Positions 4,573 through 43,200 of a DNA stretch of 64,000 nt are shown here, in pieces. The translations under genes were made by a program, and so were the position numbers. The stretch lies in NCBI RefSeq assembly GCF_000092845.1, contig NC_014150.1, positions 2,169,510-2,233,509 on the forward strand. Reading direction: 5' to 3'. Positions within the stretch are counted from its first letter, which is position 1, and every line of letters starts with the position of its first letter. The DNA is from Brachyspira murdochii DSM 12563. GTDB lineage: Bacteria; Spirochaetota; Brachyspiria; Brachyspirales; Brachyspiraceae. The notes beneath the pieces were generated by a model that saw only the letters and a list, made by a program, of their open reading frames with translations, was not told the DNA's origin and made no database searches.

Positions 4573-4814
4573 TTATATTTGTAATTTTTTTCTCACTCCC
4601 GCCCTTTAAAGTTTAAAATTTTATTCTGAAATAAAGATTTTCTTAATGCTTGTTACTTAATTAATAAAAGCACACCCGCCCAAGCGTTTATTAAATTTTA
4701 GGTATTTAACAGCACGCGGTGAGCGGAATTAAAATTTATAGTGAAATTATGTAATTTCTGACTAGCTTTGTTTATAAAGTGGTTTTAACGCGTGGTGAAA
4801 TAAGTTTATATATA
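4573..4814. other. Intergenic region with short C-rich repeats
   Basis: The gap between the RND gene and the terminator contains two CNCCCGCCC words (around 4594-4603 and 4673-4681) and, further right, two related G-rich words (CGCGGTGAGCGG near 4715 and CGCGTGGTGAA near 4789). These stand out from the AT-rich background and could be degenerate copies of an inverted or dispersed intergenic repeat. No open frame or RNA gene was recognised. Confidence 0.35.
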
Positions 4815-4857
4815 TTAAAAAACCTGCCCCAATAAAACTATTAAGACAGGCTTTTTT
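4815..4857 (-). terminator. Rho-independent terminator of the outer-membrane protein gene
   Basis: On the minus strand AAAAAAGCCTG pairs with CAGGTTTTTT, with further A-U and G-U pairs extending the stem, and ends in a T run. It lies about 30 bp beyond the stop codon of the minus-strand gene at 4887-5606. Confidence 0.8.
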
Positions 4858-4886
4858 AAATATGATTGTTTTATTTAACAGATAAA

Positions 4887-5606
4887 TTATGCTTTAGGTC
4901 CAAATTTAAATCCTAACTGTAATCCTATGTCAAAAGTACCTCCGTCAAGAAAAGGACCACTTACACTTCCGTCAGTGGCAACTTTAGGCATGAAATCATA
5001 ACCTAAATATAAACCTACATTCATAGCTATTTTATCAGTAAAGAATATAGAATAATCGAAAGTACCCTTTATATATCCTATTAATGCTGTAGAATACATA
5101 GTACCTATATAATTCATATTTAATTTAAGACTTCCAGCATCAGTATCTCCATATTTAACATTAATAGATGAAGCCATAGGGATTTTTACTCCTCCGCCTA
5201 TACCTATTGCAAATGCTCCAATATTTACTTTAGGGAGCAATCCTATTTGTATGCTTTCAAAAGATTGGGATAAAGTCATTTTAGGTGCTCCTGTCATACC
5301 TGTTGCAGCCTCACCATCCATAGAGAAAGCAAAAGTGTCATGTGCATATCCTATTTCTCCTAATATGCTAATACCTAAACCATCAGTTATACTAATCATA
5401 TAACCTAATTGAGCAGTAACTCCAATATCAAAGCCAACTCCTCCTTTAATAACATTTTTTGGTGTTCCTGCAGGTAATTTAGGAATACCTATGCTTAATC
5501 CAAATGGTACATTGAGTATAAACTCGAATCCGCTTGCTGCGAATGCTGATGTACTTAATGCTGCTGATAATACAGCTGTGAAAATGATTTTTTTTAAGTG
5601 TTTCAT
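4887..5606 (-). CDS. Outer-membrane beta-barrel surface protein (Brachyspira-type)
   Basis: The 239-residue protein has a signal peptide (MKHLKKIIFTAVLSAALSTS, cleavage likely after AFA) followed by alternating Gly/aromatic beta-strand sequence (GFDIGVTAQLGYMI, GISILGEIGYAHDTF) ending in GLQLGFKFGPKA. This is the pattern of a small outer-membrane barrel and resembles Brachyspira variable surface proteins. A strong Shine-Dalgarno (AAAAGGAG) sits before the ATG, and a terminator follows. An inverted repeat and a 7-bp tandem repeat lie upstream. The exact role (porin or surface antigen) is unknown. Confidence 0.8.
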   Translation of the reverse strand: MKHLKKIIFTAVLSAALSTSAFAASGFEFILNVPFGLSIGIPKLPAGTPKNVIKGGVGFDIGVTAQLGYMISITDGLGISILGEIGYAHDTFAFSMDGEAATGMTGAPKMTLSQSFESIQIGLLPKVNIGAFAIGIGGGVKIPMASSINVKYGDTDAGSLKLNMNYIGTMYSTALIGYIKGTFDYSIFFTDKIAMNVGLYLGYDFMPKVATDGSVSGPFLDGGTFDIGLQLGFKFGPKA

Positions 5607-5642
5607 AAAAAACTCCTTTTAATATTTTTTTATTTATAACAA

Positions 5643-5662
5643 TTAAAGATTTTGATCTTTAA
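5643..5662 (-). promoter_or_regulatory. Inverted repeat upstream of the surface-protein gene
   Basis: TTAAAGAT, a 4-base spacer and ATCTTTAA form a perfect 8-bp inverted repeat 37 bp upstream of the surface-protein start codon. It lies just upstream of the AT-rich TATAAA (minus strand) that could be a -10 box. An operator site is possible; no regulator is known. Confidence 0.35.
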
Positions 5663-5830
5663 CAAGTTATCAAAGATATAAAATGTATTTTGAATATAAA
5701 TTAAAAAGGTATTAATTAGATTTTTCGATTTATTAATTTTTTTTATTTGTGCAATGCGAAAAGAAATATGATGTATTATTAAGTTGTATAGATTGTATAG
5801 TGATTTTTTTGATAATTTTAGTGAATAGTT

Positions 5831-5877
5831 ATGCTGTATGCTGTATGCTGTATGCTGTATGCTGTATGCTGTATGCT
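5831..5877. repeat. Heptanucleotide tandem repeat (ATGCTGT)6
   Basis: Six perfect copies of ATGCTGT occupy 5831-5872, with a partial seventh to 5877. The tract lies between the divergent surface-protein gene (start 5606) and the secreted-protein gene (start 6186). Such tracts gain and lose copies by slipped-strand mispairing, and 7 is not a multiple of 3. A T12 run at 5968-5979 is a second possible unstable tract in the same gap. Confidence 0.95.
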
Positions 5878-5989
5878 TTCATAGTAATTAATTTCTCCGT
5901 CTAAATTAACTGAATACATATTAAATTAATAAATAAAATTGTCAATATTTATTAAAGAATATTTGTGTTTTTTTTTTTTATTATTGCTA

Positions 5990-6050
5990 ATAAAAATTGT
6001 TCGCTAAAAACATATAGCAGATGAATTTGCTATATGCTCACAATTTTTAT
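5990..6050. other. Long two-part hairpin in the intergenic region
   Basis: ATAAAAATTGT (5990-6000) pairs perfectly with ACAATTTTTAT (6040-6050), and inside it CATATAGCA (6011-6019) pairs perfectly with TGCTATATG (6028-6036). The 61-nt structure lies 136 bp upstream of the next start codon. It could be a terminator for a leftward or rightward transcript, a small RNA or a miniature element; none can be chosen from sequence alone. Confidence 0.5.
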
Positions 6051-6185
6051 ATTTGGCTTTCTAATATTAAAAATTATTATTTTTTATTAAAAACATAATA
6101 ATATTAAAGATATATAATTTTTCTTATGTTATTTTTACTTTTTTCCGATAAAGTATTATAGTAGTATTTTTTAAGGTAATGACGT

Positions 6186-7568
6186 ATGAAACATAGAATA
6201 TTATTACTTTTATTTATAATTATAAGCTGTTCTAATATATTTGCCCAAAATGATAACTTTTTGGATACAATTATGTTGGATCAAATTAAAAGAGTTTATC
6301 CTAATGATAATGTAGTAGCACCGTCCAGTTATGTTATTAGTATGAACTTTGATTTAAATAGATATAGATTAAATGAACCTATAACTATGGAAATAAAGAT
6401 ATATGCCAAAAAAGGAACTGTAAGTTTTACAAACTCCATTAATCCTTTTAATAATTATAGCTTTACAGTTTATGATAATTACAATAATCCAGTAGTATCA
6501 TCAGACAATTATACTTTATGGAAATATAAAAATGAAAGATCTTTAGATTCTTCTAAAGACAGAGTAGTAACTCTTAATGAAGGCGAAAGTTTTTCATATT
6601 ATGTAGATTTAAATAATTGGTTTTACTTTGACAAAACTGGAAGATACCGAGTAGAATGCAGTTTTAATCCTATGCCGGAAATAAGTGATAATTTTTCTAT
6701 GAAAGCCGATACAGCTTATTTCTTATTAGATAATGCTAGAACCTATCAGCAGCAGGGAAATACAACACCTTATAATGTTGTAACTAATATTTCACAGTTA
6801 GAACAATTCTCACCTTACAGTGTTGTATCCAATACTTTATTTTCTATGAAAAATAGGGATTGGACTAATTATTTCAGCTACATGCATATGCCTTCTATAA
6901 TAAGCATAAGCCAAAGATATTATGAAGCATACAGAAATAATTACAGCAATAGCTATCTCGAAGACTTTACAGATACCGGAGTGCGTCAGAAGGCTAGAAC
7001 ATTAAGTTTTGAGGCATTTTTAAGAGATCAGTTTGCTGATGGAATTAGTGCCAGCATGCTAAGAACTAATTTTGGCAATAATTTCTTAAATAATTTGGAA
7101 ATGGCTTATAAATCCAGTAATATAAGAGAACTTGCTATAAGATTTGATATTCTTTACAGAACTTCTTTGCCTGAAGACAGAAAAGTATTATTTGATGAGT
7201 TTAAAAAATATTTGGCTTCAGCTTATGACAGACAGGTAAGAAATAATTTTATAGCGGAACTTCAAAGAGATGTTATATCTACTAAAGATGCTAAATTAAA
7301 AGAGCATTATAGTGCCATTTTGAATATGATTAGAAATGAATATGATCCTGCAGTAAATTATACTCTTCTAAACTATACTATCGATAAAACAACAATTACT
7401 GAAGATTATGGTTTGCCTAGAGCAGAAGTTGAAACTAGACTTTATCATAGATATTTTAACGCTGATACTGGCGATGTTTATGACCCTGTTGTAAGAAGAA
7501 CATTTATATTAAGACAGATGGGTCAGTATTGGTATATTGTTAATTATTATGATACTGTTGTAAATTAA
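6186..7568 (+). CDS. Secreted or lipoprotein of unknown function with N-terminal beta domain
   Basis: The 460-residue protein begins with a signal peptide. It may be cleaved after FAQ, or lipidated at Cys15 of the possible lipobox IISC. Residues about 45-160 look like a beta-sandwich (YVISMNFDLNRYRLNEPITM ... GESFSYYVDL ... GRYRVECSF), similar in style to BsuPI-like domains. The remainder is mostly helical with Tyr/Arg-rich segments and ends in a beta-strand pair (TFILRQMGQYWYIVNYYDT). AAGG precedes the ATG, and a terminator follows. Likely periplasmic or outer-membrane associated; I cannot assign a function. Confidence 0.65.
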   Translation: MKHRILLLLFIIISCSNIFAQNDNFLDTIMLDQIKRVYPNDNVVAPSSYVISMNFDLNRYRLNEPITMEIKIYAKKGTVSFTNSINPFNNYSFTVYDNYNNPVVSSDNYTLWKYKNERSLDSSKDRVVTLNEGESFSYYVDLNNWFYFDKTGRYRVECSFNPMPEISDNFSMKADTAYFLLDNARTYQQQGNTTPYNVVTNISQLEQFSPYSVVSNTLFSMKNRDWTNYFSYMHMPSIISISQRYYEAYRNNYSNSYLEDFTDTGVRQKARTLSFEAFLRDQFADGISASMLRTNFGNNFLNNLEMAYKSSNIRELAIRFDILYRTSLPEDRKVLFDEFKKYLASAYDRQVRNNFIAELQRDVISTKDAKLKEHYSAILNMIRNEYDPAVNYTLLNYTIDKTTITEDYGLPRAEVETRLYHRYFNADTGDVYDPVVRRTFILRQMGQYWYIVNYYDTVVN

Positions 7569-11494: not shown

Positions 11495-11504
11495 TATGAT
11501 ATAG

Positions 11505-11528
11505 GTTAATGTTCACGTGAACATTAAC
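11505..11528. promoter_or_regulatory. Perfect 24-bp palindromic operator candidate
   Basis: The half-site GTTAATGTTCAC is followed directly by its exact reverse complement, giving a 24-bp palindrome centred on CACGTG. It starts about ten bases after the predicted -10 box, overlapping or just past the start of transcription, a classic repressor position. ATGTTCAC/GTGAACAT resembles operators of LacI- or GntR-type sugar regulators; that assignment is inference. Confidence 0.65.
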
Positions 11529-11551
11529 TAGCAAACTAATATGAGGATAAT

Positions 11552-20984: not shown

Positions 20985-23900
20985 TTAGTTAGATGAAAGT
21001 CCTATAAAGAATGATTTTAATCCTCCTTTATCATTTTCTACCGGAACAAATATCATATGAGATATATCTTCTCTGTCAGAAGCATCAAATTTATTTTTTA
21101 GAGAATCAGAAGAAAACGGGTCTGATACATATAAAGTTTTTTTATGCGATAAAATCTTTTTAAATAAAGCCTCATTCTCATTTATATTTAATTTATCTTT
21201 TGTAGCATCAGATATATTCTGAGATTCATCTATACTGTAGCTGCCGTCATTTTTTTTTGTAAGCATAGCTGCATGTTTTATATCAAGACCAGACTGCTCT
21301 TTTATCCAATTAAGCATGTCATGCATATTTTTATTGATAAATTTTTTACCCCTGATTGATTTTAATACATTTTTCCATCCGGCTGTCATGTTCTCTTTTA
21401 CTTTTTCTTCTGCCTCTCTGTAATAATCATCAGGTATTTTAGGTACCTCTTCAGGGTCATATAAATCTTTATCTGTAAGGTCGTCTGTATCAAATGTGTC
21501 TTTTTCACTTGCAGGTTTTACTACTTCTCCATCATCATATTCTTCTCTGAAATTAGGTGATAAATTAGAGTTATGATTATCGCTGTTTTCTTCATCATCA
21601 TAATCTCCAAGAAGAAAATCTCTGTTAAGAGAGAAGTTAAAAGCATCGCTTGAAGAAAAATACTCTTCTTCTTTTTTTACTATTTCATCTTCTAAAATAG
21701 AACCATGACTTATCAAAATGTCCCCCTCGTTATTATCATCTATAATATCATCAATGCCTTTTATTATATCCTCATTTTTATTATTGTCTATATTACTATT
21801 ATCAATTGTCTCTTCTAGTTTATCATCATCTTCTTTTATACTATCTGAATTTTCTTCATTATATGAATCAGGTATATCGTCCATATTTTCAATCGTATCA
21901 TCTATATTATCATCATCATTATTATCTTCACTTTTATTTTCTAGCTCATCATTCAAATTAGGTATGTCGTCTAGATTTTCTATAGTATCATCTATATTAT
22001 TATCATCATCGTTATTGTCTTTGCCTTTATTTTCTAGCTCATCATTCAAATTAGGTATGTCGTCTAGGTTTTCTATAGTATCATCTATATTATTATCATC
22101 ATCATCGTTATTGTCTTCGCCTTTATTTTCTAGCTCATCATTCAAATTAGGTATGTCATATAAGTTTTCTATAGTATCATCTATATTACTATCATTATTA
22201 GCAGTATCTAAATTATTTGCTTCATCATCATCTGCAATATTATCAGCATCAAGAAGTTCATCATCAGTATACTCTTTCATCTCTGGCATACTTTCATCTT
22301 TATTTTCTTCTTCTTTGTTATCTTCTTCATCGTTTATAATGTCGTCCAAGTTAGGTACATCTTCATCATCATCTACAATATTATCAGCATCAAGGAGTTC
22401 ATCATCAGTATACTCTTTCATTTCCGGCATACTTTCATCTTTATTTTCTTCTTCTTTGTTATCTTCTTCATCGTTTATAATGTCGTCCAAGTTAGGTACA
22501 TCTTCATCATCATCTACAATATTATCAGCATCAAGAAGTTCATCGTCAGTATACTCTTTCATCTCGGGCATACTTTCATCTTTATTTTCTTCTTCTTTGT
22601 TATCTTCTTCATCGTTTATAATGTCGTCCAAGTTAGGTACATCTTCATCATCTTCTATGATATTATCAGCATCAAGAAGTTCATCGTCAGTATACTCTTT
22701 CATCTCGGGCATACTTTCATCTTTATTATCTTCTTCTTTGTTATCTTCTTCATCGTTTATAATGTCGTCCAAGTTAGGTACATCTTCATCATCATCTACA
22801 ATATTATCAGCATCAAGGAGTTCATCATCAGTATACTCTTTCATTTCCGGCATACTTTCATCTTTATTTTCTTCTTCTTTGTTATCTTCTTCATCGTTTA
22901 TAATGTCGTCCAAGTTAGGTACATCTTCATCATCTTCTATGATATTATCAGCGTCAAGAAGTTCATCGTCAGTATACTCTTTCATTTCCGGCATACTTTC
23001 ATCTTTATTTTCTTCTTCTTTGTTATCTTCTTCATCGTTTATAATGTCGTCCAAGTTAGGTACATCTTCATCATCTTCTATGATATTATCAGCATCAAGA
23101 AGTTCATCGTCAGTATACTCTTTCATCTCGGGCATACTTTCATCTTTATTCTCTTCTTCTTTGTTATCTTCTTCATCGTTTATAATGTCGTCCAAGTTAG
23201 GTACTTCGTAATCATCTTCTATGATATTATCAGCGTCAAGAAGTTCATCGTCAGTATACTCTTTCATTTCCGGCATACTTTCATCTTTATTTTCTTCTTC
23301 TTTGTTATCCTCTTCATCATTTATAATATCGTCCAAGTTAGGTACTTCGTCATCATCTTCTATGATATTATCAGCATCAAGAAGTTCATCGTCAGTATAC
23401 TCTTTCATTTCCGGCATACTTTCATCTTTATTATCTTCTTCTATGTTTTCTTCTTCATCGTTTATAATATCGTCCAAGTTAGGTACATCTTCATCATCTT
23501 CTATGATATTATCAGCATCAAGAAGTTCATCGTCAGTATACTCTTTCATTTCCGGCATACTTTCATCTTTATTATCTTCTTCTATGTTATCTTCTTCATC
23601 ATTTATAATATCGTCCAAGTTAGGTACTTCATCAAAATCTTCATCATTTACTATGCTGTCTAAGGAAGATAAATCGCCTATTTTTATACTCTCATCTTCT
23701 TTTTTATCCTCTTCAAGTACATCATCTAAAGAAGATAAATCTCCTAATTTTAGACTTTCATCATTATCATCATTATTATCCTCTTCATCATCTTTTACAG
23801 TCTCGCCTCCGTCTTCAAGTACATCATCTAAAGAGGATAAATCGCCTATTTTTATACTGTCATCATCTTCTTCATTATCTTTTTTTATTTCAATTTCTTC

Positions 23901-34217: not shown

Positions 34218-37200
34218 GTGGAAAAAGAGTTCGCTAGTATTTTTGAGGATAATAAAGACATCTCACTCAATGAGTATGATATTAATAAACTTATAGAAAG
34301 AACTATAAAAATTAAAGAGAATGAATTTCCTATAATATCTATAGGAAATACTGATAAAGACAGCCCAAAAATACAAGGTGTAGTAACTTCTAAAGAATAT
34401 AATAAAGATATACTCGAATTTAACAACGTTCATGCAAAAGCAAATAGTGATAAATCAGATTCTTTAAATAGTGCATACACAGATGAAGAAAATAAACAAT
34501 ATAAAAATTTAGAAGAAAGTTTAAGTTTATCTGAAAATGATTTAGAATCTGCAGGTAATATTATAGATTCTGAATTAGATATGTCTTCGCTTTTCCAAAA
34601 TGCATTAAATAATACCGAAGCAAATGATGATAAAAAAGATAATGATAATAATAAAGAAGAAGATTTATTAAATGAACAAAATTATGTAGTTGATAATATA
34701 TATTCTAGAGAAGAAAACGATATTCATAAAAGTGCTGAAAAAGAAGCATTAACGGAAGATGAATTGAATACTCTTGAAACAGTTGAAGATTTTAATTTAG
34801 AAGATTCTTTTGAAAAAAATGAAAATCCTTTAGATGAAGAAGAAGAATTTGAAGATACATCTGATATTTCAAATATAGGAATGAAAGAATATACTGATGA
34901 AGAACTTCTTGATATAAATAATATATTAGATGATGAGGAGTTTTCTTCTAATGAGACATTATCAGAAAACTCTATTGAAAATCCTTTAGAAGAAACTTTA
35001 TCAATAGAAGAAGACCAACCAGAAGAAAGTACGGATAGTACCTCAGATAATGAAGAAACATCAGACCTAGAGATGAAAGAATACAGTGATGAAGAGCTTT
35101 TGGATTCTAGTAATATCTTGGAAGAAGCTGCTGCAATTTCAGAAGAAACATCATCAATAGAAGAAGAACAATCAGAAGAAAGTACGGATAGTACCTCAGA
35201 TAATGAAGAAACATCAGATATAGAGATGAAAGAATACAGTGATGAAGAGCTTTTGGATTCTAGTAATATCTTAGAAGAAGCTGCTGCAATTTCAGAAGAA
35301 ACTTCTTCAATAGAAGAAGAACAATCAGAAGAAAGTACGGATAATACCTCAGATAATGAAGAAACATCAGACCTAGAGATGAAAGAATACAGTGATGAAG
35401 AGCTTTTGGATTCTAGTAATATCTTGGAAGAAGCTGCTGCAATTTCAGAAGAAACTTCATCAATAGAAGAAGAACAATCAGAAGAAAGTACGGATAATAC
35501 CTCAGATAATGAAGAAACATCAGACCTAGAGATGAAAGAATACAGTGATGAAGAGCTTTTGGATTCTAGTAATATCTTAGAAGAAGCTGCTGCAATTTCA
35601 GAAGAAACATCATCAAAAGAAGAAGAACAATCAGAAGAAAGTACGGATAGTACCTCAGATAATGAAGAAACATCAGACCTAGAGATGAAAGAATACAGTG
35701 ATGAAGAGCTTTTGGATTCTAGTAATATCTTGGAAGAAGCTGCTGCTGCAATTTCAGAAGAAACATCATCAAAAGAAGAAGAACAATCAGAAGAAAGTAC
35801 GGATAGTACCTCAGATAATGAAGAAACATCAGACCTAGAGATGAAAGAATACAGTGATGAAGAGCTTTTGGATTCTAGTAATATCTTAGAAGAAGCTGCT
35901 GCAATTTCAGAAGAAACATCATCAAAAGAAGAAGAACAATCAGAAGAAAGTACGGATAATACCTCAGATAATGAAGAAACATCAGACCTAGAGATGAAAG
36001 AATACAGTGATGAAGAGCTTTTGGATTCTAGTAATATCTTGGAAGAAGCTGCTGCAATTTCAGAAGAAACATCATCAAAAGAAGAAGAACAATCAGAAGA
36101 AAGTACTGATAGTACCTCAGATAATGAAGAAACATCAGACCTAGAGATGAAAGAATACAGTGATGAAGAGCTTTTGGATTCTAGTAATATCTTGGAAGAA
36201 GAAGCTGCAATTTTAGAAGAAACATCATCAAAAGAAGAAGAACAATCAGAAGAAAGTACGGATAATACCTCAGATAATGAAGAAACATCAGACCTAGAGA
36301 TGAAAGAATACAGTGATGAAGAGCTTTTGGATTCTAGTAATATCTTAGAAGAAGCTGCTGCAATTTCAGAAGAAACATCATCAAAAGAAGAAGAACAATC
36401 AGAAGAAAGTACGGATAATACTTTAGATAATGAAGAAACATCAGACATAGAGATGAAAGAATACAGTGATGAAGAGCTTTTGGATTCTAGTAATATCTTG
36501 GAAGAAGAAGCTGCAATTTTAGAAGAAACATCATCAATAGAAGAAGAACAATCAGAAGAAAGTACGGATAATACCTCAGATAATGAAGAAACATCAGACC
36601 TAGAGATGAAAGAATACAGTGATGAAGAGCTTTTGGATTCTAGTAATATCTTGGAAGAAGAAGCTGCAATTTTAGAAGAAACATCATCAATAGAAGAAGA
36701 ACAACCAGAAGAAAGTACGGATAGTACCTCAGATAATGAAGAAACATCAGACCTAGAGATGAAAGAATACAGTGATGAAGAGCTTTTGGATTCTAGTAAT
36801 ATCTTGGAAGAAGAAACTCCAATTTCAGAAGGAACATCATCAATAGAAGAAGAACAATCAGAAGAAAGTACGGATAATACCTCAGATAATGAAGAAACAT
36901 CAGATATAGAGATGAAAGAATACAGTGATGAAGAGCTTTTGGATTCTAGTAATATTTTGGAAGAAGAAACTACAATTTCAGAAGGAACATCATCAATAGA
37001 AGAAGACCAACCAGAAGAAAGTACGGATAATACCTCAGATAATGAAGAAACATCAGATATAGAGATGAAAGAATACAGTGATGAAGAGCTTTTGGATTCT
37101 AGTAATATTTTGGAAGAAGAAACTACAATTTCAGAAGGAACATCATCAAAAGAAGAAGAACAACCAGAAGAAAGTACGGATAATACCTCAGATAATGAAG

Positions 37201-40200
37201 AAACATCAGACCTAGAGATGAAAGAATACAGTGATGAAGAGCTTTTGGATTCTAGTAATATCTTGGAAGAAGAAGCTAAATATATTAAAGAATTATCTGG
37301 TGAAGAAGTTTTAGATGATAATTTAGAAGAATTAGGAAACATAGAAGAAAGTTTATCATTAGAAGATTTGGAAAATATCGAAGAGGGTTTGGAAGAGCTT
37401 GAGCATATAGAAGAAGATATATCAGAATCTGTAGCTTCAGAGGAAGAAAGTTTGTCATTAGATAAATATATGCTTATAGATTCAGAAGACGGAACTAAAA
37501 TAAAAAGAACTTCTTATGCTAAAGATAATATAGATTTAGAAAATGCTGTATTTTCAGATGAGCAAAATTATGTTGTAAAGCATATATATTCTGAGGAGCA
37601 AGATGAACTTATAAAAGAAGTATCAGAAAAAGACAGTGTAACAGAGGAAGAATTAGAGGAATTAGATTTTGTAGAAGAATTTGATTTAAATAACTTTTTT
37701 GCTAATAAAAGTACAGATAGCAGTAATATATCTGAAGATGATATAGAAGTTCCTGATTTAGATGATGATACATTTATACCTGTAAATGATGAAGATTTAG
37801 CAATGTCTGATGAAGAATTAGATCTGCCTGATATAGAAGATGAAGAACCTAGAGATGCTGATTTATTAAAAGAAGACAATCTAAAAGAAGATGAAAAAGT
37901 CATAGAATATGATAAATATAATAATAGAGATGTTGTAGTACCTGATATAGATAATGTTGATTATATAGATGAATCTAACTATATTAATGAAGCAGATAAC
38001 ACTGAAGATGATGTTATACAGTTATCTGGAAATGAACTTGATTTAATAACTAAAGATTTTGATATTAATGAAAAAATAGATAATGATAATATTTCTGATA
38101 AAAATGATGCGGAATCTTCAGATGAAGAGCTTGAAGAAATTGATGATGGTTATATAAATACCAATGAGGAAGACATAACTGATGATTACAGAGAAAATAA
38201 TTATACATTATCAGAAATGTCGGATGAAGAGCTTGAAGAAATTGATGATGGTTATATAAATACCAATGAAGAAGACATAACTGATGATTATAGAGAAAAT
38301 AATTATACATTATCAGAAATGTCGGATGAAGAGCTTGAAGAAATTGATGATGGTTATATAAATACCAATGAAGAAGACATAACTGATGATTACAGAGAAA
38401 ATAATTATACATTATCAGAAATGTCGGATGAAGAGCTTGAAGAAATTGATGATGGTTATATAAATACCAATGAGGAAGACATAACTGATGATTATAGAGA
38501 AAATAATTATACATTATCAGAAATGTCGGATGAAGAGCTTGAAGAAATTGATGATGGTTATATAAATACTAATGAAGAAGACATAACTGATGATTATAGA
38601 GAAAATAATTATACATTATCAGAAATGTCGGATGAAGAGCTTGAAGAAATTGATGATAATTATGAATATGATTTAAAAAAAGAAGAATTATTATCTGACG
38701 AAATAAAAGAAGCATCTTCATCAGATATAGAAGATACTTCTATGTTATCAGAAAATATTGCAGAAAATGAAAGTAATTCATCATCAGAAGAAGATTTATC
38801 CGAAGAAAACGTATATATTTCAGATACATCAAAAGAACCAGAAGAGGCATCATTAGAAGAATTAAGTGAGCAAGCAGAAGGAGTTTCAGATAGTTCAGAA
38901 GAACCTTTAGAATTAAAAGAAGAATTACCAGAAGAAAAAAACGTAGAAGAAACTTCAGAACCAACTAATGATTATATAAAAAGAATGCATGAAGAGTATT
39001 TGAATAATCATCATACAGAAGATAACATTCCCTATAATGATGATTATATAAGTAAATTCAAAAACCTTCATGAAGAATATATAAAAGAAAATGTAAAGAA
39101 AGAGGAAGAAACTTCTGAGGTATCAGAAGATATTTCAAATCAATCTGAAGATTTGGAAGAAAGTAAAGAAGATATATTATCAGAAGAGATAACTGAACAA
39201 ACAGATGAAATTGAGAAATCATCTCCAGAACCAACTAATGATTATATAAAAAGAATGCATGAAGAGTATTTGAATAATCATCGTACAGAAGATAATATTC
39301 CCTCTAATGATGATTATATAAGTAAATTCAAAAATCTTCATGAAGAATATATAAAAGAAAATGTAAAGAAAGAGGAAGAAACTCCTGAAGTATCAGAAGA
39401 TATTTCAAATCAATCTGAGGATTTGGAAGAAAGTAAAGAAGATATATTATCAGAAGAGATAACTGAACAAACAGATGAAATTGAGAAATCATTTCCAGAA
39501 CCAACTAATGATTATATAAAAAGAATGCATGAAGAGTATTTGAATAATCATCGTACAGAAGATAACATTCCCTATAATGATGATTATATAAGTAAATTCA
39601 AAAACCTTCATGAAGAATATATAAAAGAAAATGTAAAGAAAGAGGAAGAAACTTCTGAGGTATCAGAAGATATTGAAGAAGAAATAGAAGATATTTCAAA
39701 TCAATCTGAGGATTTGGAAGAAAGTAAAGAAGATATATTATCAGAAGAGATAACTGAACAAACAGATGAAATTGAGAAATCATCTCCAGAACCAACTAAT
39801 GATTATATAAAAAGAATGCATGAAGAGTATTTGAATAATCATCGTACAGAAGATAACATTCCCTATAATGATGATTATATAAGTAAATTCAAAAACCTTC
39901 ATGAAGAATATATAAAAGAAAATGTAAAGAAAGAGGAAGAAACTCCTGAAGTATCAGAAGATATTTCAAATCAATCTGAAGATTTGGAAGAAAATAAAGA
40001 ATATCCTTTGCCAGAGGATACAAACGAACAAATTGAAGAATTGGCAGAAGAAGAAATAATTAATAATGAAGAAGATTTGACAGAAGAAGAAAAATCAATG
40101 TATCACAGCTATTTGAATGGTGATCAATCTTCTAATGATGATGTATCAGAAGAAGTAGAAACATCAGAGGTACCTACTACAGATTATAATGAAGAATCAG

Positions 40201-43200
40201 AAAAGATAGAGGAAGAAGCAAATCAAGAAGAGACAGTACCAGAAGAATTAATCGAACAAACAGAAGAAGTTTCAGAGAGTACAGAAGAGCCTTCCGATAT
40301 AAAAGAAGAATTGGCAGAAGAAGAAATAATTAATAATGAAGAAGATTTGACAGATGAAGATAAAGCTATGATAGAAGGCTATTTAGATAAAGTAGACAAT
40401 TATGCCGAAGAAGATTTAACAGAAGAAGAAAAATTAATGTATCACAGCTATTTGAATAGTGAACAATCTTCTAATGATGATGTATCAGAAGAAGTAGAAA
40501 CATCAGAGGCACCTACTACAGATTATAATGAAGAATCAGAAAAGATAGAGGAAGAAGCAAATCAAGAAGAGACAGTACCAGAAGAATTAATCGAACAAAC
40601 AGAAGAAGTTTCAGAGAGTACAGAAGAGCCTTCCGATATAAAAGAAGAATTGGCAGAAGAAGAAATAATTAATAATGAAGAAGATTTGACAGATGAAGAT
40701 AAAGCTATGATAGAAGGCTGTTTAGATAAAGTAGACAATTATGCCGAAGAAGATTTAACAGAAGAAGAAAAATTAATGTATCACAGCTATTTGAATAGTG
40801 AACAATCTTCTAATGATGATGTATCAGAAGAAGTAGAAACATCAGAAGAGCCAAATATTGATAATGTAGAGTTAGAGAAAGCAGATGAAGAAGAAAACAA
40901 AGAAGAATTTTCATCAGATGAATTAACAGAACAAACAGAAGAAGTTTCAGAGAGTACAGAAGAGCCTTCCGATATAAAAGAAGAATTGGCAGAAGAAGAG
41001 ATAATTAATAATGAAGAAGATTTGACAGACGAAGATAAAGCTATGATAGAAGGCTATTTAGATAAGGTAGACAATCATGCCGAAGAAGATTTAACAGAAG
41101 AAGAAAAATCAATGTATCACAGCTATTTGAATGGTGATCAATCTTCTAATGATGATGTATCAGAAGAAGTAGAAACATCAGAAGAGTCAAATATTGATAA
41201 TGTAGAATTAGATAAAGCAGAGGAAGAAGCAAATCAAGAAGAGAGAGTACCAGAAGAATTAATCGAACAAACAGAAGAAGTTTCAGAGAGTACAGAAGAG
41301 CCTTCCGATATAAAAGAAGAATTGGCAGAAGAAGAGATAATTAATAATGAAGAAGATTTGACAGACGAAGATAAAGCTATGATAGAAGGCTATTTAGATA
41401 AGGTAGACAATCATGCCGAAGAAGATTTAACAGAAGAAGAAAAATCAATGTATCACAGCTATTTGAATGGTGATCAGTCTTCTAATGATGATGTATCAGA
41501 AGAAGTAGAAACATCAGAGGCACCTACTACAGATTATAATGAAGAATTAGAAAAGATAGAGGAAGAAGCAAATCAAGAAGAGACAGTACCAGAAGAATTA
41601 ATCGAACAAATAGAAGAAGTTTCAGAGAGTACAGAAGAGCCTTCCGAATTAAAAGAAGAATTAGAATCAGAAGAAGAAATAATTAATAATGAAGAAGATT
41701 TGACAGACGAAGATAAAGCTATGATAGAAGGCTATTTAGATAAGGTAGACAATCATGCCGAAGAAGATTTAACAGAAGAAGAAAAATCAATGTATCACAG
41801 CTATTTGAATGGTGATCAGTCTTCTAATGATGATGTATCAGAAGAAGTAGAAACATCAGAGGCACCTACTACAGATTATAATGAAGAATTAGAAAAGATA
41901 GAGGAAGAAGCAAATCAAGAAGAGACAGTACCAGAAGAATTAATCGAACAAATAGAAGAAGTTTCAGAGAGTACAGAAGAGCCTTCCGATATAAAAGAAG
42001 AATTGGCAGAAGAAGAAATAATTAATAATGAAGAAGATTTGACAGACGAAGATAAGGCTATGATAGAAGGCTATTTAGATAAGGTAGACAATCATGCCGA
42101 AGAAGATTTAACAGAAGAAGAAAAATCAATGTATCACAGCTATTTGAATAGTGATCAATCTTCTAATGATGATGTATCAGAAGAAGTAGAAACATCAGAG
42201 GCACCTACTACAGATTATAATGAAGAATTAGAAAAGATAGAGGAAGAAGCAAATCAAGAAGAGACAGTACCAGAAGAATTAATCGAACAAATAGAAGAAG
42301 TTTCAGAGAGTACAGAAGAGCCTTCCGAATTAAAAGAAGAATTAGAATCAGAAGAAGAAATAATTAATAATGAAGAAGATTTGACAGACGAAGATAAAGC
42401 TATGATAGAAGGCTATTTAGATAAGGTAGACAATCATGCCGAAGAAGATTTAACAGAAGAAGAAAAATCAATGTATCACAGCTATTTGAATGGTGATCAG
42501 TCTTCTAATGATGATGCAGGAGAAGAAACAGAAATAACAGAAGAAGCTGATGTGGGAAATGATGAAGTACAAGAAGAAATTAAAGAAAATGATAAAAAAG
42601 ATGATTTAAAAGACGATGATATACTTAAAACAAAAGAAGATAATATAGTAGATGAAGACCTTGAAAATATATTATCTGACAATAATGTTCAAATAGATGA
42701 AATAAGAGATTCTGATTTAAATATGTTAGAAAATATTATAAAAGGTAAGGAAGAGGAAGACGGAGAAGAACTTATACGTATAAATAATAAAACAATTGAA
42801 AGTAATATTCAGCAAGAAGAAACTAAAGTTAAGTCTGTAGAAAATTTTGATTCTATGGAAGAGCTTTTAAATAAGGAGACAAATATGTCTGAAGAAAAAG
42901 AATTACAAACTATAGAAAAAGATAATGTAGACAGCAGTGTTGCAGTTGAAGATGAGTTTAAATTGGGTGATGATAACGGACCTATATTAATTGAAGAAGA
43001 ACATAAGCCTTCCAATAGCAGTGATGATGACGATTTTGACGGAGAGATAACACAGTCCGATTTGGATTATGCTATTAAATTGTTTGAATCAGAAGAGACA
43101 AACGGAAGCAATAATGAATATAGTTCTAAACAGGATATTTTATTATCAGAAAATGAAATTAATAAATTTAAAAAGCTATTTGGTTATTTCAAAAATATTG

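Follow-up and report, generated by a model that had tools for sequence, protein, structure and literature searches.

Can a tandem repeat located outside a gene, within a small upstream reading frame, decide whether the surface protein encoded behind it is made? The question is raised by a locus of Brachyspira murdochii, a swine-associated gut spirochete, where a heptanucleotide tract precedes the gene of a predicted outer-membrane protein (OMP). This locus, hereafter locus A, belongs to the window, that is, the whole stretch of 64,000 nucleotides analysed (G000:C1:2169510-2233509), taken from a genome that consists of a single contig of 3,241,804 bp. The titles and abstracts of the open-access papers searched did not describe SSR phase variation for Brachyspira.

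The leader ORF and its repeat tract

The elements of locus A, in the order of transcription, are the following (window coordinates):

5918-5945, minus strand: putative leader promoter, TTGACA-16-TAATAT, 10/12 consensus positions
5880-5882, minus strand: ATG that starts the leader ORF; a GGAG precedes it by 12 nt (weak spacing)
5830-5877, minus strand: heptanucleotide tract, (GCATACA)6 plus a partial GCATA (TRF; copy-number simulation)
5829-5831, minus strand: TAA that ends the leader at the present six copies, the off frame (copy-number simulation)
5630-5829, minus strand: tail of the leader ORF, a single open frame reached with 2, 5, 8 ... copies, stop TAA 5632-5630
5636-5670, minus strand: 13-bp AU-rich hairpin, ATAAC/GTTAT plus TTAAAGAT/ATCTTTAA (fold; conserved arms)
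5613-5617, minus strand: Shine-Dalgarno (SD) AGGAG of the OMP gene (from the sequence)
4887-5606, minus strand: predicted outer-membrane beta-barrel protein of 239 aa (weak OMP_b-brl_2 and OmpW matches)

The tract, which TRF scores at 6.9 copies with a 100% match, is separated from the leader ATG by one AAA codon and contains no stop in any of the three minus-strand frames. At the present six copies the leader comprises 17 codons, MKAYSIQHTAYSIQHTA followed by the stop, and ends at 5829, which agrees with the initial annotation of an ATG that enters the tract and stops directly after it. The same annotation had proposed that five copies keep the frame open to 5630, beside the OMP ribosome-binding site (RBS), and the copy-number simulation bears this out: five copies give 81 codons closed by TAA 5632-5630, 12 nt upstream of the OMP AGGAG and 23 nt upstream of the OMP ATG. 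More generally, 2, 5, 8 and 11 copies yield leaders of 74-95 codons, all ending at 5630, and with 4 or 7 copies the leader ends at 5818. The remark there on a weakly placed RBS holds for the leader ORF.

The promoter level of 10/12, common to the OMP and sialidase leaders, is reached by ~20% of 120-nt intergenic windows. A minus-strand scan at a 9-of-12 cut-off found no promoter between the tract and the OMP gene. The leader has no match in Rfam, and the tail peptide showed matches within the genus at locus A only, with no convincing homologs outside. Upstream of the leader promoter, B. murdochii carries an inserted 122-bp dispersed repeat with a hairpin (window 5968-6089, minus strand), which is missing from this position in relatives, has no Rfam match and occurs in further copies elsewhere, three of them consecutive at G000:C1:2664398-2664759.

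The OMP starts with the ATG at 5606 and its N-terminus resembles a signal peptide. Its OMP_b-brl_2 and OmpW matches are both under the curated cut-offs, and the family counts 23 matches in the B. murdochii genome.

Expectation by chance

In 464 kb of B. murdochii DNA there are eight arrays of period 5-9 with at least 3.5 copies, against one (of 3.6 copies) in a first-order Markov sequence of equal length, and the GCATACA array is far above chance. The open tail by itself is modestly unusual (p of about 0.01 in shuffles). Natural repeat-free leaders of the same genome show the same open frame in 8 of 111 cases, and in 7-11% overall, so that a single locus proves little and the open tail alone was dropped as strong evidence.

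Locus A in other Brachyspira species

Locus A was compared in six species, one genome each (the window, G017, G023, G024, G019 and G003, the latter being B. hampsonii 30446), its relatives being recognised by their same place next to a divergent 460-aa gene. At the syntenic position, G017, G023, G024 and G019 retain both the leader promoter sequence and the ATG ahead of the tract. Copy number varies between species, from two (G003) to five (G024, with GCATATA units), six (the window), at least 13 (G017, whose tract is cut by the ends of two contigs) and 15 (G023), with the proviso that repeat regions of these assemblies may contain errors; the tract is thus not invariant, in keeping with the initial annotation. 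Of the features that define SSR contingency loci, locus A consequently displays a perfect repeat above chance and a copy-number difference between species.

The open frame that the annotation had expected to be conserved is present in four of the six species: in the window, G017, G024 and G019 the tail meets no stop until 23-36 nt ahead of the gene (36 nt in the relatives), and the other two tail frames close no more than about 30 nt past the tract. In the ORF frame the tail shows no stops and one 6-nt indel, and its substitutions are synonymous more often than the 24% expected in window-G017 (synonymous to nonsynonymous 6:3, p 0.008) and window-G024 (10:8, p 0.004) and not in G017-G024 (4:8, p 0.32), these being small numbers in three comparisons that are not independent. 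The two other tail frames show no synonymous excess, and some substitutions create stops there. Since the excess is confined to the ORF frame, the latter looks to be under selection in part of the genus.

On the other hand, the switch looks dead in four of the six genomes. G019 carries at least 25 CAACAG hexamers, a unit that makes a frame shift impossible; G024 has an in-frame TAG within its unit; a 1-nt change in a poly-A run, found in the tails of G023 and G003, leaves the G023 tail frameshifted; and in G003 the leader ATG has become ATC and the promoter spacer is deleted. Judging from these lesions, the locus A switch has decayed in several relatives. The downstream gene differs as well: the window and G003 have an OMP there, and the remaining four species a lipoprotein of ~290 aa, with an interrupted reading frame in G024.

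A second GCATACA locus (locus B) is found ahead of a TPR gene and behind a gene that we take to be ispG-like, with six units in G019, three in G008 and 11 in G012, the tract being absent in other species. In G019 and G008 one of its frames ends at ATGAATAA, overlapping the TPR start. An OMP gene follows the TPR gene and one further gene in G019 and B. hampsonii, and it is at this locus B that B. hampsonii holds an 89% ortholog of the window OMP, without the leader of locus A. The locus-A OMP of B. hampsonii resembles, in turn, the locus-B OMP of G019, and because of this similarity pattern OMP alleles seem to change places between both loci. In B. alvinipulli, the OMP ortholog (L003/L032) shows internal stops or a frame break.

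The hairpin and the start of the OMP gene

The long frame runs through the hairpin (5670-5636), whose order is ATAAC-TTAAAGAT ... ATCTTTAA-GTTAT. Its arms are kept, with a loop of variable length, ahead of several Brachyspira surface-protein genes, and across the genus they show two substitutions, both preserving G-U pairs. The folding energy of the hairpin is unexceptional (z -0.88). At five other loci the hairpin is probably transcribed, because a TTGAAT-16-TAATAT (read by eye) lies upstream of it. No terminator-like site was found in 4780-6300, and the hairpin is followed by AAATAAAAAA, without a U run.

These data bear on an alternative in which the tract would be the neutral, hypermutable relic of an ancestral switch, the OMP now being driven from near its own start, for example by TGTTATAAAT at the hairpin. 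This explanation draws on the apparent death of the switch in four relatives, and on the 75 nt adjoining the OMP start that B. hampsonii and B. alvinipulli share although the leader is absent there, a conserved block which contains the extended -10-like TGTTATAAAT. However, the hairpin block is a possible but weak candidate for an OMP promoter, since TGTTATAAAT has no -35 partner and no 9-of-12 promoter is seen there, and the distance between the 5' hairpin arm and the -10-like site changes with the loop. Moreover, at the five other loci a promoter of its own precedes the hairpin, which would be part of the transcript, and the synonymous excess in window-G017 and window-G024 also speaks against a relic. 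We regard this alternative as unlikely, but as the one that best survives.

Other leader-type tracts in B. murdochii

Perfect 4-9-mer arrays of at least four copies were surveyed in 864 kb (27% of the genome), comprising the window and two evenly spaced 400-kb pieces, from which any genome-wide count is an estimate. Six leader-type arrays occur in this sample, namely those of the OMP, the sialidase (two adjacent arrays), C (a lipoprotein leader with unit AGTCTAC), the paralogous D and D' (unit ACACTCG) and E (unit CATCG). In all of them a predicted promoter with 10-12 of 12 matches lies just upstream of an ATG, which is followed by the tract. The promoters of C, D and D' reach 12/12, a level that 1.1% of 120-nt intergenic windows match. 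All six loci have non-triplet units, and each leader has a single frame that remains open between tract and gene, the other two closing earlier. By the same arithmetic, the present copy numbers place all six in an off frame.

The initial annotation had likened locus A to the sialidase leader and suggested a shared control principle. The likeness of geometry (promoter, ATG, tract and one open frame) holds. The shared principle is supported well past the two tracts first noticed, since the sialidase leader is joined by C, D, D' and E and the open frame is conserved at two of these further loci; it finds mixed evidence at locus A itself, where four relatives appear to lack a working switch. Given that D and D' are paralogs, the six open frames out of six represent five independent cases, which makes chance an unlikely explanation.

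The long frame of the sialidase leader stops at a TGA overlapping the gene ATG, and those of D and D' read AAGGAGTTCTAA-T-ATG, with the TAA 1 nt before the ATG and the SD within the ORF. The long frame of C ends at a TAG inside the SD in three species and overruns the gene start in several. The 93-codon tail of D shows no stop or indel in eight copies from seven genomes, with nonsynonymous substitutions as frequent as expected without selection, and C remains open in nine species with its amino acids drifting at about the neutral synonymous fraction. Such a pattern is what selection on translation as such, and not on the peptide made, would leave, and it is the persistence of open frames with drifting peptides that would make the act of translation the important feature.

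Three further alternatives can be weighed at this point. Tract length could tune the mRNA level or folding of the OMP in a graded, frame-independent manner, after the model of the 7-bp repeats ahead of Haemophilus hmw1A and hmw2A, as might be thought from G019, which retains its CAACAG units at the same place with the frame fixed. We consider this clearly unlikely, as all six leader-type loci have non-triplet units with one frame open to the gene, and as the frames of C and D are kept open without amino-acid conservation. Still less probable is translational interference, in which the long frame would block or compete with the OMP start (long being OFF and short ON): the overrunning frame of C favours it, but D, D' and the sialidase show the classical coupling layout, in which the ORF runs up to the start codon and includes the SD, and the long frame of locus A stops before the SD. 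Finally, the leader could encode a small phase-variable protein (74-95 aa) that serves some function of its own and has no bearing on OMP expression. This is very improbable despite the synonymous excess in window-G017 and window-G024, given the lack of convincing homologs beyond locus A, the neutral drift of the C and D peptides, and a frame that closes next to the downstream gene at each locus.

Other repeats were noticed in the course of the survey. Two L160 tracts lie at or near the 3' end of an upstream gene: AGACC x11.6 (L160:2374-2431), behind which a strong hairpin and six T precede the next gene, and AACAG x10.6 (L160:6350-6402), one frame of which ends at ATGAATAA over the next start. 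Both look like the same gating attached to an upstream gene. The AGTCTAC tract (L104:16200-16640) recurs at about 30 unrelated places in the genus, several of them at contig ends, and a TTTnnnATTGCA-like motif is common to the tails of A (5829-5630), C (L104), D (L110) and D' (L160), in different frames. Within the window, a palindrome TTAATGTTCACGTGAACATTAA (about 11500-11540, plus strand) lies between the sialidase-leader promoter and its ORF as a possible operator, and long tandem repeats of 102-339 bp (22220-23642 and 34988-42541) are apparently placed within acidic proteins.

A proposed contingency leader

The preferred explanation for locus A, towards which we lean slightly, is a contingency leader, in which the GCATACA copy number would set the frame of a short ORF heading the OMP mRNA, and repeat gain or loss would probably turn the surface protein on and off at random. 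A slip of one unit would shift the ribosome between one long on frame and a pair of short off frames that close at the tract end or slightly beyond it. In the on frame, ribosomes would cover the leader, cross the hairpin and arrive at the OMP ribosome-binding site. OMP expression would most likely rise as a result, both because the leader is shielded from Rho-dependent termination or decay and because ribosomes are brought to the OMP start. Short frames would leave ~200 nt untranslated and exposed to Rho, which is encoded in the genome, or to decay. The type strain would then be in the off frame at locus A. From this layout we infer that transcription begins at the distal promoter, that the tract slips within a strain and that the leader controls the OMP itself, as well as the direction of this control and its molecular step.

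The case for this leader switch is built on the frame arithmetic, the copy-number variation, the conserved tail and the synonymous excess in the ORF frame, together with the five other leaders alike, the drift of C and D, the absence of a promoter from tract to gene in the scan, the promoter that precedes the hairpin at five other loci and the presence of Rho. Against it stand the weak RBS of the leader, the 8 of 111 control leaders that are open by chance, a downstream gene that is an OMP or a lipoprotein depending on the species, a stop farther from the gene than at D or the sialidase, the lesions of four relatives (a hexamer, an in-frame TAG, a tail frameshift, and a lost ATG with a damaged promoter) and the B. 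hampsonii ortholog that sits elsewhere without the leader.

Comparison with known systems

In the Pil1 and Pil3 surface-protein operons of Streptococcus gallolyticus, GCAGA repeats lie within a leader peptide; out-of-frame copy numbers lengthen this leader, and ribosomes are thereby carried into a terminator, the hairpin ahead of the gene (PMC3894217). Similarly, locus A has non-triplet repeats inside a leader ORF behind a predicted promoter, here with a weakly spaced RBS, and some copy numbers would take its leader through the 5670-5636 hairpin before the gene. It differs in its 7-bp unit, in a longer tail that ends beside the OMP RBS, in the unrelated organism, and in a hairpin without a U run or any intrinsic terminator found. 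Because the terminator is absent, locus A was not filed as a member of the Pil1-type attenuation systems.

The hmw1A and hmw2A genes of Haemophilus influenzae, which encode surface proteins, also carry 7-bp repeats in their 5' region, with a graded effect of their length. Locus A shares the heptanucleotide repeats 5' of such a gene, whereas the geometry of its frames points to an on/off switch, and the scan revealed no second promoter. In classical in-gene SSR phase variation (mod, opa and lic genes), slippage changes the reading frame of the gene, as could occur in the L101 and L102 tracts of B. murdochii, which lie within genes; unlike these, the repeats of locus A occupy an upstream ORF of their own and leave the structural gene intact. 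Translational coupling, in turn, has been associated with an upstream stop within about 10 nt of the downstream start (PMC3711429). D, D' and the sialidase fall within this distance, whereas locus A, with 23 nt (36 nt in relatives), does not.

Implications for the genus

A broader and more tentative view, plausible but somewhat short of probable, is that Brachyspira species use contingency leaders throughout the genus: unrelated short ORFs behind strong promoters, gated by 5- or 7-mers and open to the next start, whose peptides drift and which would independently switch many surface lipoproteins, OMPs and the sialidase, with a surface gene at locus A that differs between species and OMP alleles that change places with a second locus. 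If leaders do switch, many combinations of lipoproteins and OMPs could be displayed at the surface with coding sequences untouched, which would bear on the choice of antigens, on the comparison of strains and on the breaks of short-read assemblies. The leaders would best be read as frame-switching ORFs that phase-vary surface proteins in a way similar to the Pil1 leader-peptide switch, and the mechanism from the pili of Streptococcus gallolyticus would then be a general design, present in an unrelated phylum.
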